From Candidatus Faecicola pullistercoris (GTDB lineage: Bacteria > Bacillota > Clostridia > Christensenellales > CAG-917), in contig DVNW01000021.1 of the NCBI GenBank assembly GCA_018714105.1, positions 127,900 through 164,224 on the forward strand: a stretch of 36,325 bases of DNA, read 5' to 3'. Position numbers and translations under genes: made by a program. The notes beneath the pieces were generated by a model. It searched no databases, was not told the DNA's origin, and worked only from the letters and a program-made list of their open reading frames with translations. Shown one piece after another: positions 1,967-36,062 of the stretch (position 1 is its first letter; every line of letters starts with the position of its first letter).

Positions 1967-1988
1967 AAGAGCTGAGGCTCTTTTTTTA
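1966..1988 (+). terminator. Terminator of TM2 gene B
   Basis: AAGAGC (1967-1972) and GCTCTT (1977-1982) form a six-pair stem with a TGAG loop, followed by a T-run. Confidence 0.75.
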
Positions 1989-1994
1989 TACCGC

Positions 1995-2023
1995 TTGATT
2001 TACGTCCGTTTATATTGTATAAT
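1995..2023 (+). promoter_or_regulatory. Promoter for ogg
   Basis: TTGATT at 1995-2000 and TATAAT at 2018-2023 have a 17-bp spacer. The GTG start at 2065 is preceded by GAAAGGGAAAG. Confidence 0.72.
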
Positions 2024-2064
2024 ATATTATAATATTATTTTTATTTTACGAAAGGGAAAGCGGC

Positions 2065-2901: not shown

Positions 2902-2927
2902 GTTTATTAATAAGTGGAGGAACTACT

Positions 2928-3440
2928 ATGGCAAAAAAATTAGTTGTATTAGCCGATATCGAAAGCGTAAGGATTCCCTTTACCTCTTTTGAAAAGGCTT
3001 TGAAAGAAGTTTCCAAGCAAGGCGAAATCGCAACCGTTAAATTCTACGGGTATTCCGCCAAAAGGACCAAAGACTACGCCGAGTTTATTCAGGACAATAA
3101 CTATGACGCTCTTTCCGCTCTTCCCAGAAAAAGAAAGGGTAAACTTGACCTGCGTCAGGTAATCGACGCCGTTAAGTACGCTCAGTATCCCAACGTAGAC
3201 GGTTTCTTCATTATTTACGGCAAGGGCGATATCAAACCCCTTATTTCCTACCTTAAAGGCTTAGGCATGGACGTTATCGCGGGTGCTGCCGCTCCCGACG
3301 CCAACAGCGCTCTATGCAACCAGACCGTGCTGCTGGAAGGCGCGGCGATGCCCAAACCCAGAAAGGCCGCTCCCAAGAAGGCTGCTGCCGACGACGGCGA
3401 TGATTTGATTGCTCAATTGTCCGCTCTGCTCAAAGGCTGA
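2928..3440 (+). CDS. Small NYN/PIN-like domain protein (degenerate active site)
   Basis: This 170-residue protein starts at the ATG at 2928, behind GGAGG (2916-2920); an in-frame upstream GTG at 2898 overlaps ogg and lacks this site. It resembles LabA/DUF88 NYN domains: Asp10 in VVLADIESV, Asp74 in KLDLRQVIDAV, and FFIIYGKGDIKPLISYLKGLG where active members have SSDGD. Lys99 replaces the first aspartate of that pair, leaving Asp101, so RNase activity may be reduced or lost. The C-terminus is a lysine/alanine-rich linker followed by a short acidic amphipathic end. A fuller NYN protein lies at 8625-9719. The role is unknown; RNA binding is an inference. Confidence 0.7.
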   Translation: MAKKLVVLADIESVRIPFTSFEKALKEVSKQGEIATVKFYGYSAKRTKDYAEFIQDNNYDALSALPRKRKGKLDLRQVIDAVKYAQYPNVDGFFIIYGKGDIKPLISYLKGLGMDVIAGAAAPDANSALCNQTVLLEGAAMPKPRKAAPKKAAADDGDDLIAQLSALLKG

Positions 3441-6812: not shown

Positions 6813-7817
6813 ATGAATCTGATTTTAGCCGCCCAGAACGTAGGCGTAATAATAGCCATTGTAGCGGTTTTATTACTTTTTATCGCGGTATTTTTTGCGC
6901 TTGTTCCCGTGTCGCTGTGGTTTTTGGCGCTCGTATCGGGCGCGAGAGTATCCATGGGACGTCTCGTGGGCATGAAGCTTCGTAAAATAAAGGTCAGAAT
7001 GGTTGTCGAGGCTTACATCAGCGCTACAAAAGCCGGGCTCGATATCGACGTGGCCGAACTCGAAACCCACTATCAGGCCGGCGGCGACGTGCTTAAAGTC
7101 GTTAACGCTCTGATTTCCGCTCACAGCGCGAACATTGCCCTTACTCTGGGTACTGCAAAGGCAATCGACCTTGCGGGCCGCGACGTGCTTAACGCAGTTA
7201 AGGTAAGCGTTAACCCCAAAGTTATCGAAACTCCCATTATTGCGGCAATCGCAAAAGACGGTATCGAACTTCGCGCAAAGGCCAGGGTTACCGTACGCGC
7301 CAATATCGCAAGGCTCGTAGGCGGCGCGGGCGAAGATACCATTATTGCCCGTATAGGCGAAGGCATCGTAACCACGGTAGGTTCGGCGTCGTCGCATAAG
7401 GACGTACTCGAAAATCCCGACAGCATCAGCAAAACCGTTCTCGCAAAAGGCCTTGACGCAGGTACGGCGTTTGAAATTCTGTCCATAGATATTGCCGATA
7501 TCGACGTTGGCCGCAACATAGGCGCACAGCTTCAGATGGATCAGGCCGAGGCCGATAAACGCATAGCTCAGGCAACCGCCGAGGAGAGAAGGGCTCTTGC
7601 CGTAGCTCAGGAACAGGAAATGAGAGCCAAGACGCAGGAAATGCGCGCCGAGGTTGTCAAGGCGGAAGCCGAAGTTCCCAAGGCAATAGCCGCAGCGCTC
7701 AAAGCAGGCAATATCGGCGTTATGGATTATTACAATATGGAAAACGTAATGGCCGATACCAAAATGAGAAATTCTATTTCCGGCGTGGATAAAAAGCCTG
7801 AAAAAACCAATAAATAA
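6813..7817 (+). CDS. floA: Flotillin-like protein FloA
   Basis: This 334-residue protein is close to the length of Bacillus FloA (331 residues). It has an N-terminal hydrophobic hairpin (about residues 8-42), the UPF0365 signature region ([20 protein letters not shown]), a PHB/SPFH-like core, and an Ala/Glu-rich coiled coil (about 240-300) with [20 protein letters not shown]. FloA oligomerises on the cytoplasmic face of the membrane and organises microdomains linked to secretion, cell-shape and signalling proteins. GGAGG precedes the ATG. It lies in an operon with nfeD upstream and an unrecognised anchored protein downstream. Confidence 0.95.
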
Positions 7818-7828
7818 GCGGTAAAATA

Positions 7829-8503
7829 ATGGATATTCTGTTTGAAATTTTACTTGAATTCGGCGGGGTTATAATCTTCTTCGTCATAGGCATAACGGCT
7901 TTTCTGACAAAGAAGGCGCAAAAACAGCTCAAATCCCGACAGGATTACCCTAAGCCCGAAACCCGCTCTGCGGCCGTCAAAGAAGTTAATCCTCCTTTGA
8001 AGTCCGACACTGCGGTAAAACCCAAACCGGGCAACGCGTTTAAGGAATTTGCGGATTTTATGTCCGAGTTCGCGGAAGGGACAACGGGCAAAGTTCTTCT
8101 TGGCGAGGAGCTGCGTTCGGATAAAAAAGAGCTCAACCACAAACCCCCTGTCGATACGGTGGACGATACGGCGGGCGGATACAGTGAAGCCGAGCGTGAA
8201 AAAACCAAAAAGAACGGCGCTTTTCTGCCCCCCGTGGAGCGTCAAAGCGCCCGTGCCGACCATTATCATCCTGCCGCTGCGGGTAAAGTAAAAATAGAAA
8301 AGGGTATTCCTACAACCAACAGTCTCAATTACGATTCTCCCGAAGGTTGTAAGGAGCTGAGCGACATACGCATCGTCAGCTCGTACGAAGAGGAAGAAGC
8401 GGACGCTCCGTATTTTACGGAAGAAGAGCTTGAAAAGCTCGTCATTTTCGGCGAAGTCGTCGACAAGCCGCTTTACGCGCGCAGTTACCGTCGCAGGCAT
8501 TAA
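7829..8503 (+). CDS. Unrecognised membrane-anchored protein, third gene of floA operon
   Basis: I do not recognise a family for this 224-residue protein. It has one N-terminal hydrophobic segment (about residues 3-27, LLEFGGVIIFFVIGITAFL), then a basic patch (KKAQKQLKSR) that predicts a cytoplasmic C-terminus. The remainder is largely low-complexity, rich in Lys, Pro, Glu and Ala, with an acidic cluster (YEEEEADAPYFTEEELEKL, about 190-208) and a basic end (RSYRRRH). It begins 11 bases after floA with no clear Shine-Dalgarno sequence, suggesting coupling to floA translation. Membrane anchoring beside a flotillin suggests a microdomain client or scaffold partner; this is inference from position only. 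Confidence 0.7.
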   Translation: MDILFEILLEFGGVIIFFVIGITAFLTKKAQKQLKSRQDYPKPETRSAAVKEVNPPLKSDTAVKPKPGNAFKEFADFMSEFAEGTTGKVLLGEELRSDKKELNHKPPVDTVDDTAGGYSEAEREKTKKNGAFLPPVERQSARADHYHPAAAGKVKIEKGIPTTNSLNYDSPEGCKELSDIRIVSSYEEEEADAPYFTEEELEKLVIFGEVVDKPLYARSYRRRH

Positions 8504-8528
8504 TCGCATAATACGGCAAAATTTTCGG

Positions 8529-8552
8529 GCCGCCCCGCAATGGGCGGCTTTT
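8529..8552 (+). terminator. Terminator of nfeD-floA operon
   Basis: GCCGCCC (8529-8535) and GGGCGGC (8542-8548) form a seven-pair GC stem with a six-base loop, then TTTT. Confidence 0.78.
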
Positions 8553-8568
8553 GCGTATATTTTCGGGA

Positions 8569-8597
8569 TTGCTTTTAAAACGGTTTTATGCTATAAT
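8569..8597 (+). promoter_or_regulatory. Promoter for LabA-like gene
   Basis: TTGCTT at 8569-8574 and TATAAT at 8592-8597 have a 17-bp spacer. CAGGAGAG precedes the ATG at 8625. Confidence 0.75.
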
Positions 8598-8624
8598 ATG
8601 TAAGATATATCATCAGGAGAGCTT

Positions 8625-9719
8625 ATGGAAAAGAAAATAGCACTGCTTATCGATGCCGAAAACGTACCCGCGTCTTACGTGGATAAAATATTCGCCGAGC
8701 TTAAAAAAGTCGGTACGGTTATAATCAAAAGAGCATACGCCGATTGGTCAAAAGCCTATCACCGCCCCGCCAGAAAAAAGGACGACAGTTACAATCTTTG
8801 GGAAGTACTTAACAAATGGTACGCGGTACTTTCCGAAAAGGGCATTACTCCCGTGCTTCAGATTCAGAATACGGTTGGGAAAAATTCCTCCGATATCTGT
8901 CTCGTGATTGACGCAATGGATATATTTTACACGTCTGATCCCGACGTATTCTGCATTGTTTCGTCGGACGGAGACTTCACAAAACTCGCTTCGCGGTTAG
9001 TCGAGGGCGGCAAAAAGGTGATAGTCATGGGCGAGAGTCAGACTCCGAAATCGGTAAGAAGCGTATCCGAATTTATACTTCTGGGTGAGGCCGTTACGCC
9101 AAAAGCGTCTTACGTTTCGTCCGAAAAGCGTACGGAAAGAAAGAAAACCGGCAATAAGGAAAAGATTGCCGAAACAAAATCCGAGCCCAGAACCGAACAA
9201 AAGGCAGAAGCCGCAGAGCCGGCCGATATACAGCCTGCACCTGTTGAGTCCGAGAAGCCGAAGCCCGCGCAGGAACCCTTTGACGCGAGGGAGTACGACA
9301 GGATTATTTCTGACAGCATAAAGGAAATTATTTCGCAGGCCGGAGGACAGATTACCTATCAGCAACTGCTTGCAAAACTCAGAATACGTCATCCCGATTG
9401 CGACGTCATAAAAGTAGGGGAAAAACCTATCGAAATATTTAAAAACCTTCCTTTTTTGAAAGTCAAACAGGAAGGCGCTACTTACTACTTTACCTTAAAA
9501 CGGGAGGAGACCGACAAGCCCGCGGACGAGGCGGAAGCCGCGTCGGAATCCGAAACGCAGAGCAAACCTGCAAAAAAGCCGGCGAGGCGCAGTAAGACTG
9601 CCGACAAGGATGAGGACCCCGCGACGGCCGAGCCTGCCGCCACACAGGACGAAAAGCCCGTTTCAAAACCGCGGCGCGGCCGAAAACCCAAAAAAGACGC
9701 GCAGTCGCAAAACGAATGA
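8625..9719 (+). CDS. LabA-like NYN domain protein with C-terminal LOTUS/OST-HTH domain
   Basis: This 364-residue protein has an NYN (PIN-like) domain at about residues 5-155 with the acidic set intact: Asp10 in LLIDAENV, Asp90 in SSDICLVIDAMD, and Asp115 and Asp117 in SSDGDF. A charged linker leads to a LOTUS/OST-HTH-like winged helix at about 222-292 (SIKEIISQAGGQITYQQLL, then FLKVKQEGATYYF). The tail is Lys/Pro/Glu-rich and ends in PRRGRKPKK, similar to an AT-hook. NYN plus OST-HTH is a known bacterial combination expected to bind and perhaps cut RNA. Its target is unknown. It has its own promoter and terminator, so it is monocistronic. Confidence 0.88.
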   Translation: MEKKIALLIDAENVPASYVDKIFAELKKVGTVIIKRAYADWSKAYHRPARKKDDSYNLWEVLNKWYAVLSEKGITPVLQIQNTVGKNSSDICLVIDAMDIFYTSDPDVFCIVSSDGDFTKLASRLVEGGKKVIVMGESQTPKSVRSVSEFILLGEAVTPKASYVSSEKRTERKKTGNKEKIAETKSEPRTEQKAEAAEPADIQPAPVESEKPKPAQEPFDAREYDRIISDSIKEIISQAGGQITYQQLLAKLRIRHPDCDVIKVGEKPIEIFKNLPFLKVKQEGATYYFTLKREETDKPADEAEAASESETQSKPAKKPARRSKTADKDEDPATAEPAATQDEKPVSKPRRGRKPKKDAQSQNE

Positions 9720-9746
9720 AAAACCGCCTTGCGGCGGTTTTTTTAT
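9719..9746. terminator. Terminator, possibly bidirectional
   Basis: AAACCGCC (9721-9728) and GGCGGTTT (9733-9740) form an eight-pair stem with a TTGC loop, followed by a T-run on the plus strand. On the minus strand the T-run is shorter, but the convergent glycosylase gene also ends here. Confidence 0.85.
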
Positions 9747-10237
9747 TTGTCGTTTTTAAAGTACGGAGCCCATATCCGAATCAGGCTGTCAAGGCTCATC
9801 GCGGCGTTTGCCGCCGAAGGCGACGGCAGTCGGTAAGCCATGTCTGCCAGCCCCGGATTGGCTTTTATAAATTCGTTATAGGCTTTGTTGCCCGTAATCA
9901 GAATTTTGCTTATTCGGGTACCTTTGATAAGTTTTGTTATATCAGCGGGGACGACGTCGGAGATAGTGCTGTCGGCCGATCCTTTTATTGTGCAGCTTTC
10001 AAGTACGTCGTAAAGGGCTATGCGGTGCTTGAGAAGCAGTTCGATCTTCTGCGGCTTGGGCACCGAAAAGTCTTCGTCGAAAATCGCCGACAGAATTTTC
10101 CAGAAACGGTTCGATTTATGCGCATAGTAAAAACCTTCGGCGGCGGAGGCTACCGAAGGAATACTTCCCAAAACCAGAACGGTGCAGTTGTCGTCTATTA
10201 CGGGGGCAAAGCCGTGCTCGGCAAAACGTTGGTTCAT
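9743..10237 (-). CDS. DNA-deoxyinosine glycosylase-like protein (uracil-DNA glycosylase superfamily)
   Basis: The start chosen is the ATG at 10235-10237, which overlaps the upstream stop by four bases (ATGA); a longer ORF exists but runs into that gene. The 164-residue product has VLVLGSIPSVASAAEGFYY followed by HKSNRFWKIL, matching the hypoxanthine-DNA glycosylase (family 6) branch of the uracil-DNA glycosylase fold, and KILITGNKAYNEF plus RLPSPSAANA for the C-terminal motif block. It would remove deaminated adenine from DNA. Exact specificity within the superfamily (mismatch uracil versus inosine) cannot be fixed by eye. Confidence 0.82.
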   Translation of the reverse strand: MNQRFAEHGFAPVIDDNCTVLVLGSIPSVASAAEGFYYAHKSNRFWKILSAIFDEDFSVPKPQKIELLLKHRIALYDVLESCTIKGSADSTISDVVPADITKLIKGTRISKILITGNKAYNEFIKANPGLADMAYRLPSPSAANAAMSLDSLIRIWAPYFKNDK

Positions 10238-10794
10238 CTGGCGCTTTGTCCTCGCGCAGACTCGTTTTGATGCGCTTCGCTTACCGTGAATATGCTGCGG
10301 CAGTATTCGCATACGCCCTTACCGTTGAAAACCTTTACTTTTGCGTTGCAATACGGGCAGGATACCGTTTCCGCCGTAGTGGTTTCCACCTGTATTTTAC
10401 CCTCGGAGGTGGAAACAATCTGGTCCTGCACGATAATTACGTCCGTCAGATAGCCTCTGCGGATCATATAGTTGAGTTTGGAACGCATCTGAACTTCGGG
10501 CAGATTGTTTATGCTTGCAAGTTTGATTACGTTGGTTACGCCGTTTACGAAAATCTGTTCCAGCACGGTCATTGATTTTTTAAGAGAGCCGTAGTAAACC
10601 CACATCAGCGGAGTGCCGTAAAAACCAACTGCCGTACCGACTATGCCGAATACCATTAAAAAAGTACTCTTTTTCGCGCCGATAGGTATACACGGTATGC
10701 CCGCCACGAAAAGAACGGAAATAAACAACGAGGCGAAAAAAACGACGTTGAGATGTAAACTTAATTTTTTATAGTCTTTTCTGTTTTTATCCAT
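10234..10794 (-). CDS. Two-helix membrane protein with C-terminal zinc ribbon
   Basis: I do not recognise a named family for this 186-residue protein. It has two hydrophobic segments (about residues 15-36 and 43-66), a middle region with a winged-helix-like pattern (about 75-130, MRSKLNYMIRRGYLTDVIIV), and a zinc ribbon (CPYCNAKVKV, then CEYC at about 144-163). The middle and ribbon are probably cytoplasmic. The downstream DNA glycosylase is translationally coupled by ATGA. The -10 box of its promoter lies only six bases before the ATG and there is no Shine-Dalgarno sequence, so the mRNA is predicted to be leaderless. Confidence 0.72.
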   Translation of the reverse strand: MDKNRKDYKKLSLHLNVVFFASLFISVLFVAGIPCIPIGAKKSTFLMVFGIVGTAVGFYGTPLMWVYYGSLKKSMTVLEQIFVNGVTNVIKLASINNLPEVQMRSKLNYMIRRGYLTDVIIVQDQIVSTSEGKIQVETTTAETVSCPYCNAKVKVFNGKGVCEYCRSIFTVSEAHQNESARGQSAR

Positions 10795-10800
10795 GTTTAA

Positions 10801-10829
10801 ATTATAACATTATATGCTTTATTTTGCAA
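10801..10829 (-). promoter_or_regulatory. Promoter giving a leaderless mRNA (membrane gene and glycosylase)
   Basis: Read on the minus strand, TTGCAA (10829-10824) and TATAAT (10806-10801) have a 17-bp spacer. The start codon begins at 10794, so transcription should start at or next to its A. A second TATAAT-like box lies a few bases upstream (around 10809-10814) with a poorer -35. Confidence 0.62.
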
Positions 10830-10851
10830 CAGCAATAACAAAAGTAGTGCA

Positions 10852-10881
10852 TTGACAAATATCTTCGGGCACGGTTATAAT
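10852..10881 (+). promoter_or_regulatory. Promoter for GH31 gene
   Basis: TTGACA at 10852-10857 and TATAAT at 10876-10881 have an 18-bp spacer. AAAGGAG at 10905-10911 lies six bases before the GTG start. Confidence 0.82.
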
Positions 10882-10917
10882 ATTAACATACAGATTCGGT
10901 TTTTAAAGGAGATAAAG

Positions 10918-12423
10918 GTGTTTTCGGTTAAAATAGCAAGAGGCGAAAAATGGTACGGCGGAGATATAATGTTGGGTTCGTTTATGCCCGTAGGCAGTCT
11001 GCGGCCGCACTTGATCAAAGGCAAAAGGGTGGTTACTGCAAACCAGTTCAATACTTTGCTGGTAAGCGATAAGGGCAGGTATATCTGGACGCGGGAAGGA
11101 GCCGACGTGCTTTTCCTGTTCGGCCGTATAAACGTAATGTGCGATAAGGATAATGTTACTTTCAAAGACGGACTGGGCAATCTGAAAGGGGCATACGAAA
11201 CGGCCTGCAAAAATCATTTCCCGTTCAGGAAACAGATGCCTGCCGAAATAATGTTCCGAGCGCCGCAGTACTGCACTTGGATTGAAATGACAAATCGTCC
11301 TTCGGCAGAAAAGGTAATAGCTTATGCCCGTAGCATAATAGAAAGCGGTATGCCTGCGGGCGAACTTATTATAGACGACGGCTGGCAACGCAATTTCGGC
11401 GAATGGGAGTTTACCGACAAGTTTCCCGATCCCGCGGGCATGGTAAAAACCTTAAACGGCCTCGGCTTTAAAGTAATACTGTGGATTTGCCCCTTCATAT
11501 CGGAAAAAAGCCCCGATTTCGGCTATCTGAAAGAGAAAGGATTGCTGGTTAAAAACAAAAACGGCGAGGTCGCTTTCAGAAACTGGTGGAACGGACGGGA
11601 CGCTTTGCTCGATCATTCCAATCCCGAAGGGCTTGCGTGGTACAGGACGGTTACGGAAAATCTTAAAAACAAGTATAACGTGGACGGGTTTAAAATGGAC
11701 GCGGGCGACGCGCGTTTTTATCGCGACGACGACATTAATTTCGCGGGCGCAAATTCTAACGAGATGAGCAGACTATGGGCGCTTGCGGGTACGGATAATC
11801 CGTTTTCCGAACTCAGGGCCTGTTTTCAGCTCGGAGGATACGGGCTTGCGCAAAGGCTTGCCGACAAAAATCACAGTTGGGGAAAACTTGCGGGCTTACG
11901 TTCGCTTATTCCCAACGCTTTGCTTGCCGGCGTGTCGGGATACCCCTTTGTGTGTCCCGATATGATCGGCGGCGGACAGGTCAAATCCATCGAGGGGGGA
12001 ACGGGCGGTTACGACAACGAGCTTTTCAAACGCTCCTGCGAGTGCAGCAGTCTGATGCCGATGATGCAGTTTTCCATAGCGCTGTGGAATATGCCCGACA
12101 AGTCCGTGGTACAAGCCGCTTTGCTTGCGGCAAAAAGGCATTCGGAGTTTTCCGATTACATAGTTTCGTTGGCCGAAGAGGCTGCCGTTAGCGGAAGGCC
12201 GATCATACGGTATTGCGAGTACGAATTCCCCGGCCAAAAAATGTACAGATACAAACAACAGTTTATGCTGGGCGATAAATATCTTATTGCGCCCGTTACC
12301 GACAAGAAGGGATATTCCGCCGTAAAACTGCCGAAGGGCAGGTGGAAAAATCTTTCCGACGGCAGCACGGTTGAAGGAGGAAAACTGAAAGTATCCGCTT
12401 TTACCGTATACGAAAGAATATGA
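10918..12423 (+). CDS. GH31 glycoside hydrolase, MYORG-like (candidate alpha-galactosidase)
   Basis: The start is GTG at 10918, six bases after AGGAG; the longer ORF would begin inside the -35 box. The 501-residue protein has a GH31 TIM barrel: LIIDDGWQRNFGEWEF, then VILWICPFISEKSP, RNWWNGRDALLDHSNP, and DGFKMDAGDARFY with the predicted nucleophile Asp. HSWGKLAGLRSLIPNALL and GYPFVCPDMIGGG follow, with an Asp in LADKNHSW as the likely acid/base. As I recall the MYORG branch, whose human member is an alpha-galactosidase, it shares this WWNG, LDAGE and PDMVGG pattern. There is no signal peptide, so it acts in the cytoplasm. No sugar transporter lies nearby, and the substrate is inferred. Confidence 0.82.
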   Translation: MFSVKIARGEKWYGGDIMLGSFMPVGSLRPHLIKGKRVVTANQFNTLLVSDKGRYIWTREGADVLFLFGRINVMCDKDNVTFKDGLGNLKGAYETACKNHFPFRKQMPAEIMFRAPQYCTWIEMTNRPSAEKVIAYARSIIESGMPAGELIIDDGWQRNFGEWEFTDKFPDPAGMVKTLNGLGFKVILWICPFISEKSPDFGYLKEKGLLVKNKNGEVAFRNWWNGRDALLDHSNPEGLAWYRTVTENLKNKYNVDGFKMDAGDARFYRDDDINFAGANSNEMSRLWALAGTDNPFSELRACFQLGGYGLAQRLADKNHSWGKLAGLRSLIPNALLAGVSGYPFVCPDMIGGGQVKSIEGGTGGYDNELFKRSCECSSLMPMMQFSIALWNMPDKSVVQAALLAAKRHSEFSDYIVSLAEEAAVSGRPIIRYCEYEFPGQKMYRYKQQFMLGDKYLIAPVTDKKGYSAVKLPKGRWKNLSDGSTVEGGKLKVSAFTVYERI

Positions 12424-25395: not shown

Positions 25396-26949
25396 TTATT
25401 CTTCGTCGTCCTCGCCGACGCCGTCCTTTACTTCCTCGGCGTTAAGGTCGGAAACTTCCTCGTCCTCGTCGGGGTTGTACGAACCCGTGTCAATCATGGA
25501 CAGGGATACCCGCTGTTTGGTTTCGGCCTTGGGTGCCTCGACGGGCTTGGGAAGAGATTTGAGCATTATATTCTCGATATTTTCAAAGAAAGTGTTTATC
25601 ATTTCTTCGCCGACGCCTTTATCGGGCAACATTGTTACCGACAGCTCGGAATTGAAAATGAATTTGTAATAGAGTTCCTTAATGAATTTGGAAGTGTCGA
25701 GATTCTTCGGCGGCTTGACGAGCAGGCAACCCATATCGGCTTTGGCTCCCTTCTGGAATACCAAAGTAAATTTTCCGCATTTGACGATATTCTGCCCCTT
25801 CATATAGCTGTCTTTGATAAACTCGCCGTCGATATCGTAGTGGGAGAGGGGTTTGGGCTCGCGCAATATATCCGTTTTGGTCTGCTGCATAACGGCAATC
25901 TGATAAGCCGTGTCGATAAGCCATTTGACCACTTTGGGCGGAAGATTTCTGAGCTCGCTGAAACAGAACCATACGGGGCCTGCGGGGAAGTTGCTGTCTT
26001 CCAGAGCCTTGAAAACTTCGTTGAGTTTTACGGCGGCGTCGGGGAAACATTTGATTGAAACTTTATAGCAGTCTTTGCCTTCCCTTATCATCATAAAGGA
26101 TTTGGCGCCGTATTTGAAAGTCCAGTTGATTGCGCCGCGCTTTTTGATTGTAACGATGCCTTTTTTAGTCATGGCGTAGGAACAGATTTCCTTGGCCGTC
26201 ATCGTGTTCTGAGTCCGTTGAGTTTTAAGAATCTCGTCGAACTTGGTATTGCCGGACATATTGGTCTGGATAATATCGAGGTCGGTAGCGCCCAGTTTTT
26301 CGAGCACTTTGATTTTTTCGTCGTATTTGATAACTTCCGCATAAAGACCGCCGTTGATTTCCTCGAGGTCGGTTTTGTTGTATTTATCGAAGTTGATGGG
26401 CGTTGCGTCAACCTCGATTTTTGCGGGTTTATATTCGCTTTCGTCGGGAATGGGAACAAGCACCTCGGGAGCGTCGCTTTCGGTTTCGGCCACCTCGGTA
26501 ACCTGCTTGATTTCCTGAATGACGACGTTCTTTTTAAAGGCGGGCATGAAAATAACGATCAGAGTAAGTACTGCCTGAACGGCCAGAGGGGCAAGAGCCG
26601 CGTAGTCCTTTAAGAAAGGAATATAAGTAACGAGATCTATTACTTTAATATAATCGAGCACCGCTATGGCAATAAGGCCGAGCGATACAACAGCCGCAAA
26701 AATCCTGAATACGATAATTCCCGCCGAATTGTCGCGAGGCTTTTTCTGCTCAGCGGGACTTTGAGAGTTTTGCTGCTCGGAAACTTCTTCGCCGGATTTT
26801 TTTGCGCGCCTGCTTTTATTGTTTTTGACAGGTTCGATTATTTTGACCTCGGGCCCTTCGTTTACGGGCTTACCGTCGGCCGCGATTGCCGGATTGCTGA
26901 CTTCGGTTTCGGCGGAAGCGGATTCCGCAGATAAAGTTTTTTTAGCCAT
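25396..26949 (-). CDS. Large unrecognised two-helix membrane protein
   Basis: This 517-residue protein has a low-complexity cytoplasmic N-terminus (about 1-72, rich in Ala, Glu, Lys), two hydrophobic segments (about 77-98 and 115-138), and a long soluble C-terminal region ending in an acidic tail (DEDEEVSDLNAEE and GEDDEE). The stretch around residues 265-345 (YKVSIKCFPDAAVKLNEVF, then VVKWLIDTAYQIA) weakly resembles the MmcQ/YjbR double-wing fold; I would not call it on that alone. It is the only gene of its unit, with a promoter at 27062-27090, divergent from the pilus operon. The function is unknown. Confidence 0.7.
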   Translation of the reverse strand: MAKKTLSAESASAETEVSNPAIAADGKPVNEGPEVKIIEPVKNNKSRRAKKSGEEVSEQQNSQSPAEQKKPRDNSAGIIVFRIFAAVVSLGLIAIAVLDYIKVIDLVTYIPFLKDYAALAPLAVQAVLTLIVIFMPAFKKNVVIQEIKQVTEVAETESDAPEVLVPIPDESEYKPAKIEVDATPINFDKYNKTDLEEINGGLYAEVIKYDEKIKVLEKLGATDLDIIQTNMSGNTKFDEILKTQRTQNTMTAKEICSYAMTKKGIVTIKKRGAINWTFKYGAKSFMMIREGKDCYKVSIKCFPDAAVKLNEVFKALEDSNFPAGPVWFCFSELRNLPPKVVKWLIDTAYQIAVMQQTKTDILREPKPLSHYDIDGEFIKDSYMKGQNIVKCGKFTLVFQKGAKADMGCLLVKPPKNLDTSKFIKELYYKFIFNSELSVTMLPDKGVGEEMINTFFENIENIMLKSLPKPVEAPKAETKQRVSLSMIDTGSYNPDEDEEVSDLNAEEVKDGVGEDDEE

Positions 26950-27548: not shown

Positions 27549-28739
27549 ATGCAAAAATATTCTTATAAGGCTTTATCTTCGGACGGCAAAGTACATAGAG
27601 GCATTATCGCCGCTACCGACGAGGACGATTTCAATAAAGTCGTTGCCGATAAGGGTCTGCGGGTTTTTTGGGTTAAGGTTTACGGAAAGAAAGAAACCTC
27701 TTCGGTCAAAAAACTGGACCTTGTAATGGTAATGACTTTTTGTCGTCAGCTGTCCTCCATGCTTACGGCGGGTCTTCCGCTTTCGAAGTCTCTCGAAATG
27801 CTTTACGAACGTACGGACAAACCCAAGCTGAAAAACGCGCTTGCGGCCTTGTTCGAGGGCGTTCAGAAAGGTCAGTCGCTTGCCGAGTCCATGGCCGAGA
27901 TGGGCAACGCTTTCCCGCCCTTGCTGATCAGCATGATAAAAGCGGGGGAGATGAGCGGCCAGCTCGAAGATACTCTTACCAAAATGGCCGACCATTACGA
28001 AAAGCAGAAAAAGCAGGCGTCGCAGGTCAAGTCGGCAACTTCGTATCCCAAAATGCTGGGCATAGTACTTGTTCTGGTAACGGTGGCCATGATAAAGTTC
28101 ATTCTGCCTAGAATGGTGGACGTTTTGCCGGAAGGGACAGCCGTTCCGGGGCCGACCAAAGTGCTGATGGCTCTCGATACTTTTCTCACCAATAATTTCG
28201 TAATTATCATAGCGCTTGTATTCGGAATTTTCATCGTGCTGCCCATAGTGCGTAAAATCGAAGCGGTGGATTTGTTTTTGGGCCGTCTGAAAATTTATCT
28301 GCCCATCGTAGGCAAGCTCAGGCGTCAGATTTATACTTCGACTTTCGCGAGTTCGCTTTATACGCTTTCAAGCAACGGCGTTCCGCTTCTCGACGCCATG
28401 AACATGTGTTCCGAAATGATGGGCAACTCATTTATCAGTCTGCAACTCGACGGGGCGATAGAGGCTATACGCCGCGGCGAGTCCATATCGGCATCGCTGC
28501 AATCGATAGAGGCCTTCGACCCCTTGCTAATGACGATGATATTCGTAGGAGAGGAATCGGGTTCGCTGGATCTCATACTCAAACAGACTGCCGAATATTT
28601 CGAAAACGAAGCTTCCGAAGCAATTAAAGGCATGACATCGCTTATCAATCCTTTGATGACGCTTGTCATGGCGGTGGTAATCGGCTTTGTGCTTATAGCG
28701 ATACTGATGCCGATGTTCTCGCTTTACGATTCATATTAA
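27549..28739 (+). CDS. pilC: Type IV pilus inner-membrane platform protein PilC (GspF family)
   Basis: This 396-residue protein has the two tandem GspF domains of the platform protein: FCRQLSSMLTAGLPLSKSLEML and FASSLYTLSSNGVPLLDAM start each copy, and GEMSGQLEDTL and GEESGSLDLIL are the matching loops. Three transmembrane segments are seen (about residues 168-190, 215-238 and 365-388). PilC anchors the PilB motor at the membrane and passes rotation or force to pilin assembly. It opens the operon pilC-pilM-pilN-pilO; gaps between genes are 11-23 bases. Confidence 0.95.
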   Translation: MQKYSYKALSSDGKVHRGIIAATDEDDFNKVVADKGLRVFWVKVYGKKETSSVKKLDLVMVMTFCRQLSSMLTAGLPLSKSLEMLYERTDKPKLKNALAALFEGVQKGQSLAESMAEMGNAFPPLLISMIKAGEMSGQLEDTLTKMADHYEKQKKQASQVKSATSYPKMLGIVLVLVTVAMIKFILPRMVDVLPEGTAVPGPTKVLMALDTFLTNNFVIIIALVFGIFIVLPIVRKIEAVDLFLGRLKIYLPIVGKLRRQIYTSTFASSLYTLSSNGVPLLDAMNMCSEMMGNSFISLQLDGAIEAIRRGESISASLQSIEAFDPLLMTMIFVGEESGSLDLILKQTAEYFENEASEAIKGMTSLINPLMTLVMAVVIGFVLIAILMPMFSLYDSY

Positions 28740-28762: not shown

Positions 28763-29671
28763 ATGATACATTTTTATCTGAACAGTGAAAAGTTAAAGGC
28801 AATGTCGGCAAATGCCGGAAAGAAGAAAATCAAGGTTACCAAAATATACGACCTGGATTTCCCCAACGAGTTTCTCAACGACCCCGACCAGGATAAGCTT
28901 GACGTAAAGCTTACCGAGGCAATGCTGAACATAATCCGCGCGGGGGACATAAAATCCAAAACGGCCTCTTTCGTGGTAGACCATTCCAAGATACCTTTCA
29001 GAGAGATGTTACTGCCCGCCGGTACGCCGGCAAAACTTTCGCCGATAATAAAGGGCGAACTGTTTACCGACAAGAAGATGGCCGAGGCCAACACGGTGGA
29101 TTATATCGAAGTGGAGCGCAACGTCAATCAGGACAAGCAGAGCCGCGTTCTGGTAACTTATATGGATAACACCATAATAGACAACCTCAAAAAGTGTTGT
29201 AAGGACGTGGGCATGGGGCTTAAAAGCATCAATATTCAGCAGAACTGTCTTACCAAGCTGGTAAACTTTATGAAAGAAGAGCTGCCCGAAAACTTTATGC
29301 TTGTGGATTACAGGGTTACTTACACGACCACTTATCTGTTTTCTAAGGGCGAGCACATCTTTTCTATGACGAAGTCCATCTTTTCGGTACCGAGCGAATC
29401 TTTCGCGAACGAAACGGCCTTTTTCATAAACGATATAAGTTTGCAGCTGTCGGACGCAATGTCGTTCTTCCTGTCCAAGTACGACAACGCGAGATTCGAT
29501 ACGATATTCGTAACGGGGAGCACCTTCCTGTTCGAGCCCTGCCTGCCGCAGATATCGTCCATGCTTAACCGCACCGTAAAATTATTGCCTAAACCCGAAA
29601 AAATCGAAGGCGTAGGTATACACGAATTCAACGATTACAGCAGCCTTATCGGCAGCCTTGTTAAGAAGTGA
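28763..29671 (+). CDS. pilM: Type IV pilus assembly protein PilM (actin-like)
   Basis: This 302-residue protein is divergent PilM. It has the length and place expected between pilC and pilN, a central region FMLVDYRVTYTTTYLFSKGE resembling the phosphate-binding strand-turn-strand of actin-like ATPases, and DTIFVTGSTFLFEPCLPQIS as the adenosine motif. PilM is a cytoplasmic protein that binds the N-terminus of PilN and links it to PilB. The neighbour PilN begins KTDINFIVSQK, which resembles the conserved INLLP motif PilM recognises. Key acidic residues of the ATPase seem weak, so nucleotide use is uncertain. Confidence 0.8.
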   Translation: MIHFYLNSEKLKAMSANAGKKKIKVTKIYDLDFPNEFLNDPDQDKLDVKLTEAMLNIIRAGDIKSKTASFVVDHSKIPFREMLLPAGTPAKLSPIIKGELFTDKKMAEANTVDYIEVERNVNQDKQSRVLVTYMDNTIIDNLKKCCKDVGMGLKSINIQQNCLTKLVNFMKEELPENFMLVDYRVTYTTTYLFSKGEHIFSMTKSIFSVPSESFANETAFFINDISLQLSDAMSFFLSKYDNARFDTIFVTGSTFLFEPCLPQISSMLNRTVKLLPKPEKIEGVGIHEFNDYSSLIGSLVKK

Positions 29672-29683
29672 GGGGACTAAAAT

Positions 29684-31489
29684 ATGAAGAATTCGAAGAA
29701 AACAGACATTAACTTTATCGTCAGCCAGAAGCTGGGCGCGAAGCAGAACCAATCGTTTTCGTTCGAGCTGATACTCGTAATGGCGGTTGTGGTAATAATC
29801 GTGCTGATGGGCTATCTGTACTTTGACGCGTGGTGGAGCAACAACTCTATCGAGAACGAAATCCGCAAAATATACGGCGCGGACATGAAAGAGGAAATAA
29901 CCGCGGGCGATACCGGATTGATAGCGATAACGGTAAACGAAAGCGGCTATCAGCATCTTGTTAATCTGAAAGCCCAGCGGGACGAACTCAAATTGCAGCT
30001 GGAAGAGCTGAAATCCGCCAACGACGCCGCTCTTGCCGAAATAGAATTACAGGCCGAGCATCTCGTAATTCTTTATACCGAGGCGTCGGCGTCAAACGTA
30101 ACTTTGCAATCGCTGTCGCTTAACGGCAATACGCTTACCATAAGCGGCGTTACGAACCTGGATCAGAATCTGTTCAATTTCATCAGGTCGCTTGAAAGCG
30201 GCGTGCCCGGAAGCACCGGTCTTGTGAACAGCGAATGGATGACCTACATACCTCAGTCTTTCTCGTCGCCGATAAAGGAATGGACCATAGCGGTAACGCT
30301 GCTGTCGCCCGCAATGACGGACCACGCCGCCATATCGGTAGCCAACATCAAGGCGGAAGCGGCGGACATAGCCACCGATATAAGGAGCATAACGAGAGTC
30401 AGCACGGGTTCGATGAACCTTGCCGGCATAATGCAGAGGCTTGAAAGCGACTACGGCAGAGAAATAGCGGTAACTGGCGCGAATATCGGCAAACTGTTGG
30501 GCGAGCATTCGATATACACGCTTACCTTTACTCGCGGAACCGAGGGCAAGTACAGCAGTATCAGGATAGAAAGCGCGGATACGGGCGCTAACGGCGCGGA
30601 CGCGGTAAACGTTGACATAGGCGTGGCCGTTACGGACGAGGTACTTGCCGAATACGCCGCCGCCGAAAAAGCCGAAATTAAAATGCAGCTGCAAGCGATA
30701 GCCGGTAGCGGTACCACGTCGGAAAGCGGCATTAAGCAAGCTCTTTCGGCAAAGCATTACGTGATCGACGGCAATTCCGTACACGGCAGTTACGGCGATT
30801 ACACGCTTGTATACCTGGTAGCGACGGCCGACGCGGCAGGCACGGTAACGATTGACGGCGAAAGCGTCGAGATAACCGGCCCGATAACGGACGCCGCGGC
30901 GTACGTACGCGCAGAGGCCGAGGAGATAGCCGAGGCTCTGGCCGCAATAGCGTATGACAAACTCTACGAGCAGGCGGACATAATCAAAGCGCTTGATGAT
31001 AATTATTTCTACGTCATAACGGATACGACGGGCGCGGTAAGCACAGTCAAGGGCAGTTACAGCGATTACAAACTGACTTACGGCGAAGCTACCGATAAAG
31101 ACGCGGGTACGGTAACGGTTGAAAGCGTTGCGGCAGGCGCCGACGGAGATAACGCGATAAGAGTGGAAATCCGCAAGAAACTTACGCTCAGCGAACTTGC
31201 GGCCATAGTACGCGCCGAAGCCGAGGCGATTGCGCTGAGTCTCAAAGCGGCGGGGCAGGCGGCGATAGCCGAAGGCGAAACCTTCGGGCAGGCCGAGGCC
31301 GAAGCCTTGCTGGCCGACGAAGGATACGTAGCCGACAGCACAACCGACGGAGCATACGTGGGCCTGTGCGGATATTCGTCGTATAAAGTAACGGTGTCGG
31401 AAAGCGACACGGCGATTACCGTCAGGGTGGAAAGCACTGCGCGCGGCGCGTCGGGCTACGACGCAATAGTAGCCACGGTAGCCAAATAA
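29684..31489 (+). CDS. pilN: PilN-like alignment protein fused to four C-terminal repeats
   Basis: This 601-residue protein starts with a PilN-like module: KKTDINFI, a single transmembrane segment (about 29-47), a coiled coil (about 92-125, KAQRDELKLQLEELKSANDA) and a ferredoxin-like fold to about 210. Normal PilN is about 200 residues. Residues 214-601 instead form four degenerate repeats of 85-103 residues (about 214-316, 317-401, 402-501, 502-601), each beginning with a helix rich in Ala and Glu (AxVRAEAEEIA) and ending in a beta-rich block containing SDYKLTY or GDYTLVY. The topology places the repeats outside the cell membrane. There is no frameshift or low-quality break. The function of the extra part is unknown. 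Confidence 0.82.
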   Translation: MKNSKKTDINFIVSQKLGAKQNQSFSFELILVMAVVVIIVLMGYLYFDAWWSNNSIENEIRKIYGADMKEEITAGDTGLIAITVNESGYQHLVNLKAQRDELKLQLEELKSANDAALAEIELQAEHLVILYTEASASNVTLQSLSLNGNTLTISGVTNLDQNLFNFIRSLESGVPGSTGLVNSEWMTYIPQSFSSPIKEWTIAVTLLSPAMTDHAAISVANIKAEAADIATDIRSITRVSTGSMNLAGIMQRLESDYGREIAVTGANIGKLLGEHSIYTLTFTRGTEGKYSSIRIESADTGANGADAVNVDIGVAVTDEVLAEYAAAEKAEIKMQLQAIAGSGTTSESGIKQALSAKHYVIDGNSVHGSYGDYTLVYLVATADAAGTVTIDGESVEITGPITDAAAYVRAEAEEIAEALAAIAYDKLYEQADIIKALDDNYFYVITDTTGAVSTVKGSYSDYKLTYGEATDKDAGTVTVESVAAGADGDNAIRVEIRKKLTLSELAAIVRAEAEAIALSLKAAGQAAIAEGETFGQAEAEALLADEGYVADSTTDGAYVGLCGYSSYKVTVSESDTAITVRVESTARGASGYDAIVATVAK

Positions 31490-31502
31490 GGAGGACGCGG
31501 AT

Positions 31503-32093
31503 ATGTCATTAACCAAGAAAGAAAAAACATTAATATTCGTACTTATAGTAATAATGATAGTAGGCGGCTTTTACATGTACGGCATCACGCCCATGAACGA
31601 GAAAAAAGCCGATAACGAGGAGTTGCTCAAAAAGGCGCAGGAAGCCCTTAAAAGCGTAGAGGACCAGTACTTCGAAGTAAACAACAACGGCGCCACAATC
31701 GTATCCAACGAAATAGAGCAGATACAGGCCGAGATGGACAAATACACGGGCAACGTAACCGAAACGGGCGACTATCAGTTCTGGTCTTCCAACGACGAGC
31801 AGTACAAGAAAAACTATTCCACGATGGTAGAGGTGCAAAACAAACTTAAAGAGTGGGGGCTCACGCTTTACAGCACTCAGATAGGCACGTTTGCGGGCAA
31901 TCCTACTATCGACGAAGTGGTATTTCAGGCTCAGTACGAGTGCAGGGGCGGCATTGACGGCATCAAGAAGTTTTTAAACAGCGTGGATAAAGAGATGAGT
32001 CTGCTTATAGCGGGAATCAGCATAGCGCAGACGGAATCGGGCGCGCTGGGCGGCACTATAACCCTGCATATCAAGATAGCCGTAGGGCATTAA
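31503..32093 (+). CDS. pilO: Type IV pilus alignment protein PilO-like
   Basis: This 196-residue protein has one N-terminal transmembrane segment (about residues 8-28, TLIFVLIVIMIVGGFYMYGI), a coiled coil (about 34-80) and a C-terminal ferredoxin-like region ending in TITLHIKIAVG. Size, topology and position after pilN are those of PilO, which dimerises with PilN through the same coil and core folds. GGAGG is present 13 bases before the ATG region. It is the last gene of the pilC operon, followed by a strong terminator. Sequence identity to PilO is low, as is usual. Confidence 0.82.
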   Translation: MSLTKKEKTLIFVLIVIMIVGGFYMYGITPMNEKKADNEELLKKAQEALKSVEDQYFEVNNNGATIVSNEIEQIQAEMDKYTGNVTETGDYQFWSSNDEQYKKNYSTMVEVQNKLKEWGLTLYSTQIGTFAGNPTIDEVVFQAQYECRGGIDGIKKFLNSVDKEMSLLIAGISIAQTESGALGGTITLHIKIAVGH

Positions 32094-32139: not shown

Positions 32140-32280
32140 ATTGCGTGCGGCAGGCAGTATCTATACTCATACGAAAAGCGGAAAACGGTTTTGCGGCAAT
32201 GTACGGCGGTCAAGAGGGGGATGCGGGGGAGAAAAGGCACCGCATCGGGGCGTCCGACGGTAAACGCTTTAAAATTATTA

Positions 32281-32309
32281 TTGAAAAATATAAATATATA
32301 TTATATAAT
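32281..32309 (+). promoter_or_regulatory. Promoter giving a leaderless pilD mRNA
   Basis: TTGAAA at 32281-32286 and TATAAT at 32304-32309 have a 17-bp spacer. The pilD ATG begins seven bases later. The region is very AT-rich. Confidence 0.6.
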
Positions 32310-32316
32310 ATTAATT

Positions 32317-33096
32317 ATGAATGCGTTAGATTATACCTTAATAGTGTTTTCCGCCCTGTTCGGGCTGGCGGTGGGCAGTTTCTTAAACGTGTGCATATAC
32401 CGCATACCGAAAAAAGTCTTTTTCGAAAGCAAGCGTTCGTATTGTCCCGAATGCAAGGCTCAGCTTAAATGGTACCATAACGTACCGCTTTTCAGTTATA
32501 TCGCATTAAAGGGCAAATGCGCGTTTTGCGGGGCGAAAATAAGCCCGAGATACCCGATAGTCGAATTTTTAAACGCCGCGCTGTGGGTAGCCACGTACTT
32601 TGTGTACGGGCCGAGTTTTCAGACTTTGCAGATAGATTTGATAATAAGCGTGCTTATAGTAATGTCGTTTATCGACTTCGACACAAAAGAAATACCCGAC
32701 GGCATACACGCGGTGCTGATTGTCCTGGGGATAGCGGGCATATTCTTGTGCAGGAGCTACGGCGGCGGCGACATACTCTGGTGGGAAAAACTGATAGGCG
32801 CGCTCGCGGTAAGCGTACCTATGTTCGTAATAGCCTTGATAACGGGCGGCATAGGCGGCGGCGACATCAAGCTGTATTTTGCTTTGGGGCTGATACTCGG
32901 CTGGAAACTGATACTCGCGGCGGGGCTGATAAGCGTACTGCTGGGAGGGCTCGGCGGTGTAATATTAATGCTTATGAAAAAGGCGGGGCGTAAAACGGAA
33001 ATGCCCTTCGGCCCGTACATAGCGATTGCAAGCCTTGTAACGCTTTATTTCGGCGAGGACCTGCTGAGCTGGTACATAGGATTAATGGGATTTTAA
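32317..33096 (+). CDS. pilD: Prepilin peptidase/N-methyltransferase PilD
   Basis: The ATG at 32317 (MNALDYTLIVFSALFGLAVGS) starts the conserved protein; the 42 residues encoded further upstream are not PilD-like. The 259-residue enzyme has a zinc-binding loop (CPEC and CAFC near residues 47-72), and the two catalytic aspartates in SFIDFDTKEIPD and GGIGGGDIKLYFALG. Multiple transmembrane helices are present. PilD cuts the leader peptides of prepilins and methylates the new N-terminus; both pilins downstream have the matching G-F cleavage site. There is no Shine-Dalgarno sequence, and the mRNA is predicted leaderless. The gene is monocistronic. Confidence 0.93.
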   Translation: MNALDYTLIVFSALFGLAVGSFLNVCIYRIPKKVFFESKRSYCPECKAQLKWYHNVPLFSYIALKGKCAFCGAKISPRYPIVEFLNAALWVATYFVYGPSFQTLQIDLIISVLIVMSFIDFDTKEIPDGIHAVLIVLGIAGIFLCRSYGGGDILWWEKLIGALAVSVPMFVIALITGGIGGGDIKLYFALGLILGWKLILAAGLISVLLGGLGGVILMLMKKAGRKTEMPFGPYIAIASLVTLYFGEDLLSWYIGLMGF

Positions 33097-33258: not shown

Positions 33259-34947
33259 TTGGCAAACATCTCGTTGGGGGATCTGCTTGTCGAACGCAGG
33301 CACATCTCACAGGCGCAACTTAACGACGCAATACGCTGGCAGCGCACGCATCCTAACGAAAAGCTGAGCGACATACTGCTTTCCAGGGGGTTAGTGTCGG
33401 AAGACCACGTACTTAAAGCCTATGCGGATATATTGGGCCTAAGGTATATCGAAAACGAGATAGTCGTACTCCGTCCCGAAATTTTAAAACTCATACCCGA
33501 ACAGCTCGTCAAAAAGTACACCATAATGCCGGTGGAAATGAAGGGCACCAGCAAAATAGTAATTGCAACAAGCGACCCGCACGACATGTCGGCCACCGAG
33601 GACGTCAAGATGGTGTCCAAAAAAGAGGTGGAAATCGCGCTTTGCCCTAAGCGTAACATACTTACGGCAATCGACAAATACTACACTAACGCCGGCGCAT
33701 TCTTCGTATCGGACGAAGCCGTTCAGAAAACCATAAACACGGTATCCGCGGCCACGCAGGCCAAGATGACCGAAATAGAAAGCCGTGTTGACAACACGCC
33801 CGTAGTTAAGCTGATAAACAGTCTGGTACAGCAAGCCTACGTAAGGCGCGCGTCGGATATACATATCGAGCCTTTCGAGGAACAGGTTCTCGTGCGTATG
33901 CGTATCGACGGCGAACTTGTGGAGGTAATGCGCCTTGACATAGCGTCGCACTCGGCAATAGTATCCCGCGTAAAGATACTTTCCGGCATAAACATCGCCG
34001 AAAAACGTATCCCGCAGGACGGCCGTTTCGACTTTGTAACCGACGACCTTACGGTAGACCTTCGTGTAAGCACCTTGCCCACGATATACGGCGAAAAGGT
34101 CAATATGCGTCTTCTGGCCACAGGCGAGGCCAAAAGCATAAGATTAAGCGAACTCGGCATGAAGCCCGAGCACTTAAAGCAATTTGAAAAGATAATACAC
34201 GCGCCAAACGGCATAATCCTGGTTACAGGTCCTACCGGTAGCGGTAAATCAACCACGCTTTACGCCGTACTGGCCGAACTTAACCAGCCCAACGTAAACA
34301 TTACTACGGTTGAGGACCCTGTCGAAAAACAGATTTTCGGCGTAAATCAGGTGCAGACCAACGCCAAAGCGGGCCTTACGTTCGCTTCGGGCCTCAGAAG
34401 CATTCTGAGGCAGGACCCCGATATCGTCATGATAGGTGAAATCCGTGACGAGGAAACGGCCGAAATCGCTATCCGCGCGGCTATTACGGGCCACTTGGTT
34501 CTGTCCACGTTGCACACCAACGACTCTATCGCGTCTATCGTGCGTCTTATAGATATAGGCGTGCCCGCATATATGGTTGCCGCTTCGGTAAACTGCGTTG
34601 TGGCGCAAAGGCTTGTGCGTAAGCTCTGCCCCGACTGCAAACGCAAACGTAAAATCAAACCCGAGGAGTCCGACCTGTTGCAGGACAGCAGTATCAAATA
34701 CGTGTACGAGCCCGTCGGTTGCCCGCGTTGCGGCAACACCGGTTTTAAAGGCCGTACCGCTATATACGAAATCGTCGAGCTGGATAACCACATCAAGCGC
34801 ATGATTACCGAAGGCAAAAGCACCGACGAAATCAAACAGTACGCCCGTGAAAACGGCATACCTTTCCTGGCGGACAGCTTAAAAGTTCTGCTTGCGGAGG
34901 GGACCACCGCTCTTACGGAGTATTACAGGCTGATATACTCTATCTAG
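33259..34947 (+). CDS. pilB: Type IV pilus extension ATPase PilB
   Basis: The start is TTG at 33259, five bases after GGAGGG. The 562-residue protein has an N-terminal MshEN-like domain (LGDLLVERRHISQAQLNDAI), then the GspE ATPase: Walker A GPTGSGKSTTLYAVL, Asp box (TTVEDPVEKQ), Walker B (PDIVMIGEIRDEET), His box (GHLVLSTLHTNDS), and a zinc-binding loop with two CxxC pairs (CPDC, CPRC). PilB hydrolyses ATP at the cytoplasmic face of PilC to extend the pilus. MshEN-type N-termini bind c-di-GMP in some PilB proteins, but the binding residues were not checked here. It is followed by pilA, possibly in the same unit. No PilT is seen. Confidence 0.96.
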   Translation: MANISLGDLLVERRHISQAQLNDAIRWQRTHPNEKLSDILLSRGLVSEDHVLKAYADILGLRYIENEIVVLRPEILKLIPEQLVKKYTIMPVEMKGTSKIVIATSDPHDMSATEDVKMVSKKEVEIALCPKRNILTAIDKYYTNAGAFFVSDEAVQKTINTVSAATQAKMTEIESRVDNTPVVKLINSLVQQAYVRRASDIHIEPFEEQVLVRMRIDGELVEVMRLDIASHSAIVSRVKILSGINIAEKRIPQDGRFDFVTDDLTVDLRVSTLPTIYGEKVNMRLLATGEAKSIRLSELGMKPEHLKQFEKIIHAPNGIILVTGPTGSGKSTTLYAVLAELNQPNVNITTVEDPVEKQIFGVNQVQTNAKAGLTFASGLRSILRQDPDIVMIGEIRDEETAEIAIRAAITGHLVLSTLHTNDSIASIVRLIDIGVPAYMVAASVNCVVAQRLVRKLCPDCKRKRKIKPEESDLLQDSSIKYVYEPVGCPRCGNTGFKGRTAIYEIVELDNHIKRMITEGKSTDEIKQYARENGIPFLADSLKVLLAEGTTALTEYYRLIYSI

Positions 34948-34987: not shown

Positions 34988-35013
34988 ATTTGACATTTAA
35001 GGAGGATAAAAAA

Positions 35014-35481
35014 ATGTTAAAGAAAAAGTTAAACAAAAAAGGCTTCAGCTTAATCGAATTGATTATAGTTATAGCCATTATGGCAATTCTTGCCGCAATT
35101 ATCGTTCCTACCGTTATCAACAAAGTTCAGGAAGCTAATGAGTCTGCCGCTCAAACAGAAGTTAGCAATATTGCCACCGCAATTCAGCAGGAAATAGTTG
35201 AGTTACAGGCTACTACACCTGCTAAAGAATTAGTTTATTTAAAAGATGATGCAAACGGTGCTATTTCGTTAGTAACCACTTCTTCTGGTGATTCTAGAAT
35301 TGCACTGACTCCTGATACTAATCCTACTACTATCACTATTACAAATACTGTAGGAAGCACTGAATATAAGGCAACCATAACGATTTCTACCGGAAAAGTT
35401 GTGTATAGTTGGAATAGCGGCGGCACAGAAGCAGTAGAAGGCGGCGCAGGCGGCGCAGGCGGCGCAGGAGCAGGAGCTTAA
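35014..35481 (+). CDS. pilA: Type IV prepilin 1 with Gly/Ala repeat tail
   Basis: The ATG at 35014, eight bases after AAGGAGG, is used; the longer ORF starts upstream of that site. The 155-residue protein has a basic leader (MLKKKLNKKG), cleavage between Gly10 and Phe11, and the FSLIELIIVIAIMAIL helix with Glu at position +5. A beta-rich globular domain follows, without cysteines. The C-terminus is TEAVEGGAGGAGGAG then AGA, encoded by a tandem repeat. The gene body is clearly more AT-rich than its neighbours and prefers ACT, CCT, GAT and GAA codons. This fits either high expression or a different history. It is probably the major pilin. Confidence 0.92.
   Translation: MLKKKLNKKGFSLIELIIVIAIMAILAAIIVPTVINKVQEANESAAQTEVSNIATAIQQEIVELQATTPAKELVYLKDDANGAISLVTTSSGDSRIALTPDTNPTTITITNTVGSTEYKATITISTGKVVYSWNSGGTEAVEGGAGGAGGAGAGA
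35440..35466 (+). repeat. Three tandem 9-bp repeats encoding Gly-Gly-Ala
   Basis: GGCGGCGCA occurs three times in a row at 35440-35448, 35449-35457 and 35458-35466, followed by GGAGCA and GGAGCT. The repeat lies at the extreme 3' end of the pilin gene and preserves frame, so copy number can vary without breaking the protein. Confidence 0.9.
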
Positions 35482-35604: not shown

Positions 35605-35630
35605 AAGGTTAGTTATCGTAAGGGGTGTTT

Positions 35631-36062
35631 ATGAAAAGATATACTTCCAAAAAAGGTTTCAGTTTAATAGAGCTTATTATCGTAATTGCCATAATGGCAA
35701 TACTTGCCGCCATTATTGTGCCCACCGTAATAAACAAGGTAGGCGAAAGTCAGGATACGGCCAGCTTGATGGACGCTAAAAATTTGGCTAACGCCATTAC
35801 GAACTATTCGGTAGAGCACCCCGATTACGACTGGGCAAACGTAAATTGGCAGGAAGTTACGGGTATACAGAGTATAGGCTCGGATAATAAGTATAAGGAT
35901 TTAACTTTGGGCTACGAGGCCGCTCACGGCGTATCAATAAGTTTTGTGGCTCAAAGCAGCGGCCTTAACGGCCAGCTTCCCGAAGTAGAAAAAGGAAGCA
36001 CCGTTATTTACTGGGTAGCCGTGCTTGATCAAGGCCGTCAGTCCATAGAAGTTACCGATTAA
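35631..36062 (+). CDS. Type IV prepilin 2
   Basis: This 143-residue protein starts at the ATG at 35631, six bases after AAGGGG; a GTG two codons earlier overlaps that site. Leader MKRYTSKKG is cut before Phe10, giving FSLIELIIVIAIMAIL with Glu at +5. From KKGF for 31 residues the sequence is identical to pilin 1, while the rest is unrelated in detail (NWQEVTGIQSIGSDNKYKD, WVAVLDQGRQSIEV). Codon choice in the shared part differs at many silent sites. No cysteines are present. It has its own terminator, so it is a separate unit. It is likely a minor or alternative pilin. Confidence 0.9.
   Translation: MKRYTSKKGFSLIELIIVIAIMAILAAIIVPTVINKVGESQDTASLMDAKNLANAITNYSVEHPDYDWANVNWQEVTGIQSIGSDNKYKDLTLGYEAAHGVSISFVAQSSGLNGQLPEVEKGSTVIYWVAVLDQGRQSIEVTD

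Follow-up and report, generated by a model that had tools for sequence, protein, structure and literature searches.

A PilN with four tandem repeats on its predicted outside end in a type IVa pilus locus of Candidatus Faecicola pullistercoris

How do monoderm pilus machines cross a thick cell wall, and why are PilN or PilO sometimes enlarged in them (PMC6916266)? These questions are touched by a pil locus from Candidatus Faecicola pullistercoris, in which pilN encodes an extended protein of 64 kDa. The window, that is the whole stretch of DNA analysed here (36,325 nucleotides of contig DVNW01000021.1), contains a type IVa pilus locus with the order pilC-pilM-pilN-pilO-pilD-pilB-prepilin-prepilin and the following features:

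27549-28739, plus strand: pilC, platform protein (PF00482, E 1.2e-59)
28763-29671, plus strand: pilM (PF11104, E 8e-4; position; 46% identity to PilM of the relative G001)
29684-30319, plus strand: PilN core, aa 1-212 (cytoplasmic tail with DINF motif, membrane helix at about aa 21-52, coiled coil, PilN-like fold)
30329-30631, plus strand: PilN repeat 1 (R1), aa 216-316, repeat profile domain
30635-30883, plus strand: PilN repeat 2 (R2), aa 318-400, repeat profile domain; shorter, without the GAxGxxAI end
30893-31183, plus strand: PilN repeat 3 (R3), aa 404-500, repeat profile domain; the copy that was modelled
31190-31486, plus strand: PilN repeat 4 (R4), aa 503-601, repeat profile domain
31503-32093, plus strand: pilO, 196 aa (T2SSM PF04612, E 7e-6, slightly below the cut-off; position)
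32191-33096, plus strand: pilD, prepilin peptidase (PF06750, PF01478)
33259-34947, plus strand: pilB, extension ATPase (PF00437, E 3e-133; MshEN)
34990-35481, plus strand: prepilin 1 (N_methyl, E 7e-9)
35625-36062, plus strand: prepilin 2 (N_methyl, E 1.5e-8)

The contig ends 263 bases past prepilin 2. Prepilin 1 (34990-35481) has a C-terminal glycine-alanine run, GGAGGAGGAGAGA, which is absent from prepilin 2. On the minus strand of the window, positions 25396-26949 encode a protein of 517 aa, divergent from the pil locus, that contains a membrane segment, and relatives possess a divergent gene of 540-600 aa at the same place (665-2458 in locus L018 and 1516-3171 in locus L019). The source genome is a draft of 1.6 Mb in 28 contigs, 98% complete, and encodes on contig C20 a second PF00437 (T2SSE-type) ATPase (158.8 bits, 353-aa frame), which is taken as PilT by its size and family alone. 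When this 98% complete genome was searched for a secretin, no match to PF00263 was found at E 1. An absent secretin is expected of a monoderm. From the full pil locus, the ATPase of PilT size and the lack of a detected secretin, the pilus machine looks complete and of the monoderm type IVa kind. Between pilO and pilD, family relatives encode two minor pilins together with a protein of 1100-1670 aa whose N-terminus is hydrophobic; the source genome has the equivalent module on another contig (C7; positions 7668-12283 of locus L043), where a 1215-aa protein with a hydrophobic N-terminus is accompanied by minor pilins of 122 and 193 aa. Because this module is present, the possibility that the PilN repeats replace a minor-pilin module lost from the pilO-pilD interval was rejected. 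Five prepilin-type matches were found in the genome, all of them outside the repeats.

Translation of the window gives pilN as one frame of 601 aa without interruption (29684-31489, plus strand). A preliminary description of this DNA had claimed that the PilN-like part and its single membrane segment are intact, and this is borne out by profile, BLAST and hydropathy results. In a Pfam profile search the core matched PF05137 with E 7e-4 and 20.1 bits, the curated cut-off being slightly higher at 22.8 bits; a second profile search gave 22.2 bits, covering profile positions 13-47 only, and BLAST gave 25% identity to PilN of G001 with E 4e-7. The protein resembles ordinary type IVa PilN (PF05137) in its position between pilM and pilO, with gene order as in relatives, and in its short cytoplasmic tail, one membrane helix and PilN-like core, whereas ordinary PilN stops after the core and the PilN described here adds about 389 residues. 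Hydropathy analysis indicates one hydrophobic segment at about residues 21-52, and the N-terminus, KKTDINFIVSQK, has a net charge of +4 and a tail motif of the D-I-N-F type. Because of the one membrane helix and the positive N-terminus, PilN is predicted to be bitopic with its N-terminus inside and its C-terminus outside, so that the repeats would lie outside the membrane, as had been proposed.

The extension after the core consists of four tandem, diverged copies of a domain of about 97 residues. The internal symmetry that had been described as four degenerate repeats was recovered in two ways: a profile built from the four PilN repeats delineates four domains, and R3 as a single query retrieves the other three copies with conditional E values of 5e-9, 2e-8 and 4e-9. 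Shuffle z-scores are 12.6-13.8 for the pairs R1-R3, R2-R3 and R3-R4 and 5.0 for R1-R4, and reach only 3.7 for R1-R2 and only 2.2 for R2-R4. As R1, R2 and R4 are only 28-46% identical to R3, the copies are old and do not stem from a stutter in assembly. The repeats contain the motifs given in the preliminary description, the GADGDNAIRV-like end occurring in R1, R3 and R4 but not in R2. The extension is acidic (pI 4.4) and rich in Ala, Thr and Gly. Opposite the repeats, the minus strand of the window has a 474-codon open frame (30092-31516), probably a by-product of composition, with nothing pointing to a gene.

To what extent is this extension shared? PilB was detected at E 1e-60 or better in 15 of the 43 family genomes, and those with a PilB 59-73% identical have the same kind of pil locus. 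In seven family loci (L018-L024), which include three identical in PilN, this protein has 240-254 aa and no repeats; the extra region is thus not found in PilN generally. Since close relatives with the same locus have no repeats, the extension would seem to be dispensable for pilus assembly in the family generally. The earlier suggestion that the repeats stand in for PilP and PilQ of Gram-negatives is likewise not supported: the family relatives keep the same pilus locus without them, and as both PilN and PilO are short in G001, the wall appears passable with no extension of this kind. It is nonetheless conceivable that the repeats span the wall or guide the pilus across it. A check for accompanying pilO had been proposed, and pilO is indeed present beside the extended pilN; as it is present in all loci, its co-occurrence proves nothing. 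The repeat profile found nothing beyond PilN in its own genome, no match in 396 genomes of the order, and in 391 genomes of the class only two weak matches (L036 and L037, E 0.0015-0.0017), which look like chance. A phage origin, suggested by the GAxGxxAI end, was rejected, as no match to the repeats was found in PHROGs, phages, plasmids or viral contigs. Neither the protein nor the profile gave anything significant against Pfam and PDB sequences, a Tad_C match to the repeats (E 0.03-0.04) being below threshold, and two short-pattern scans of genome contigs retrieved no relative, these being weak negatives that depend on the short patterns. The repeat is seen in one draft genome of one species, and a second example was not found among about 790 genomes of the order and class; judged from these sequences, the extended PilN is apparently a unique, lineage-restricted and extreme case of domain accretion on PilN.

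Matches to PF05137 occur in 131 of the 391 class genomes, mostly in frames of about 180-220 aa. Frequent matches in frames of about 500-600 aa gave the impression that long PilN is common. Nearly all of the long frames fetched (15 of 18) appear to be fusions of PilM to PilN in which PilN forms the C-terminal part, judged by the position of the match and PilM-like first residues (about 350) and not by a PilM profile; one is a chance match, which is what the 2147-aa frame of genome G564 looks like, and two have C-terminal additions. Such fusions, described for C. difficile (PMC6916266) and as PulL in type II secretion (PMC10191384), share with the protein described here a long PilN-containing frame and are common in the class, but their extension is an N-terminal, cytoplasmic PilM, whereas here the repeats are predicted to be outside. 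The two C-terminal additions are a PsbP-like domain (PF18933, E 3e-6) in the 332-aa PilN of genome G598 (L060) and an unnamed beta-rich tail in the PilN of up to 324 aa of genome G654 (L061). PilN frames in the genera of both are about 310-340 aa long, which suggests that the additions are common to their members, one member of each having been read. From these two tails, the outside end of PilN seems to be a site where clostridia add domains. Both resemble the present case in having an extra outside C-terminal domain and differ from it in that this domain is in one copy and from other families; among the PilNs examined here the 601-aa protein is the longest and the sole one with tandem copies.

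Enlargement also affects PilO. Relatives of one genus (L019, L020 and L021-L024) have a PilO of 305-345 aa, the extra part of which has no Pfam name, beside a PilN of about 245 aa, whereas PilN and PilO have 601 and 196 aa in the source genome and 244 and 194 aa in G001. Extra mass is found on different partners across the family, yet it is not obligatory: both proteins are small in G001, which breaks any rule that one of the two must be enlarged. A parallel outside the clostridia is Streptococcus sanguinis, another monoderm whose PilN-PilO pair carries additional mass outside the membrane. Its PilO has 56.6 kDa and has been proposed, as speculation, either to ease passage of the pilus across peptidoglycan or to serve as an anchor for the machine (PMC6916266); in that species PilO is the enlarged partner and PilN has 22 kDa, the reverse of the distribution found here.

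A single-sequence model of full-length PilN was unusable (pLDDT 38.9). A model of R3, for which the other three repeats served as alignment, showed an alpha-alpha-beta5 arrangement, i.e. two helices followed by five strands, with pLDDT 82.6 and pTM 0.78. A Foldseek comparison of this model with PDB structures and with viral models gave only E values of 0.07 or more. A second structural comparison was run on Foldseek's 999 best chains, and 50 matches were listed. Among the matches listed, the best is the pseudopilin EpsI (3cfi_A; Z 5.6, 68/76 residues, 3.0 A), followed by 5bw0_B of the XcpV-XcpW pseudopilin complex (Z 5.5, 71/89 residues, 3.1 A); the pilin 4d40 is tied third with Z 4.5, from which value unrelated proteins appear too, the IVb pilin 3fhu is eighth (Z 3.9) and the bimodular minor pilin 7ba2 has Z 3.0. 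Pilin-type entries make up 5 of the 50 matches listed, notable given how small this protein class is, although on the scale of the tool Z below 8 perhaps indicates only a common arrangement. The likeness to the heads of EpsI and 5bw0_B is that of a helix followed by an antiparallel sheet, with almost the whole domain aligned, whereas the PilN repeats have no prepilin signal, stand in tandem and are carried on PilN. There is thus moderate support from modelling for a pilin-head-like fold minus the hydrophobic stem of a pilin. It is conceivable, and somewhat better placed than the other alternatives, that the repeats are instead a generic alpha/beta extracellular domain unrelated to pilins and fused to PilN as a spacer of the surface type, which could span the wall, bind wall polymers or be near-neutral. 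The acidic Ala/Thr/Gly-rich composition, as in many surface repeats, the middling Z values and a sequence link to pilins that is not significant would fit such a spacer, but pseudopilins are the top structural matches over nearly the whole domain, and the repeat went undetected in other surface proteins of the source genome and of the roughly 790 relatives.

In sequence, kinship of the repeats to pilins is weakly supported. The N_methyl motif of prepilins is absent from the repeats, and hhalign revealed no link between the repeat profile and the family pilins. When the frames of the pil loci were scored with the repeat profile, the top scorers were mostly pilins, and pilin heads as a set scored above their own shuffles (p 2e-4); their excess over their own reversed sequences was not significant (p 0.14). 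The best single pilin head, from G001 (16702-17151 of L018, minus strand), reached 9.2 bits, equalled by none of 100 shuffles, against 30-81 bits for true repeats on the same scale, and no chain of homologues joining repeats and pilins was found in the order. Given this weak evidence, we call the fold pilin-head-like without claiming homology. That the repeats descend from pilin heads and dock pilins at the base, holding or storing subunits, or guide them via pilin-like surfaces, is consistent with the fold matches, the set excess and the 9.2-bit head, and a summary of work on Thermus thermophilus suggests that PilN and PilO bind the pilin PilA4 through their outside domains, the PilN domain being a reported pilin-binding site (PMC6325625); with the reversed-sequence result, the gap to true repeats and the missing chain against it, such descent is doubtful. 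Only tentatively, too, might the four stemless modules be seen as fixed imitation subunits beside the growing pilus, docking pilins or guiding the filament through the wall. A misassembly joining the extension to pilN, thinkable for a single draft genome in 28 contigs, is very improbable, as there is one open frame with copies only 28-46% alike, third-position GC is 0.64 in the extension and 0.65 in the core and equal in pilM and pilO, and pilO starts 13 bases after pilN in the same order as in relatives.

The reading we favour, at a probability of about 0.5, is that the extension forms an accessory stalk of pilin-head-like modules on the outside end of PilN at the base of the type IVa pilus; the top Z of 5.6, unrelated chains from 4.5 and Foldseek E values of at least 0.07 count against its pilin-head part. 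In this monoderm machine the outside C-terminus of PilN would have gained four tandem alpha-alpha-beta5 domains, which would stand outside the membrane beside the growing pilus and, as an extended string, might measure perhaps 14-18 nm by our estimate. Their role would most likely be that of a lineage-specific stalk in the cell-wall zone, contacting or spacing the emerging filament: the modules could hold or guide pilin surfaces, or could serve as a spacer. What is new is the tandem four-domain extension, since domain addition to the C-terminus of PilN has clostridial precedents, together with a predicted alpha-alpha-beta5 fold whose best structural matches are pseudopilin heads. The extension is an obvious, removable set of four modules on a PilN whose relatives exist without it, which offers a clean truncation test, and if the modules are pilin-like, pilin heads would be reusable as fixed parts of the pilus machine.
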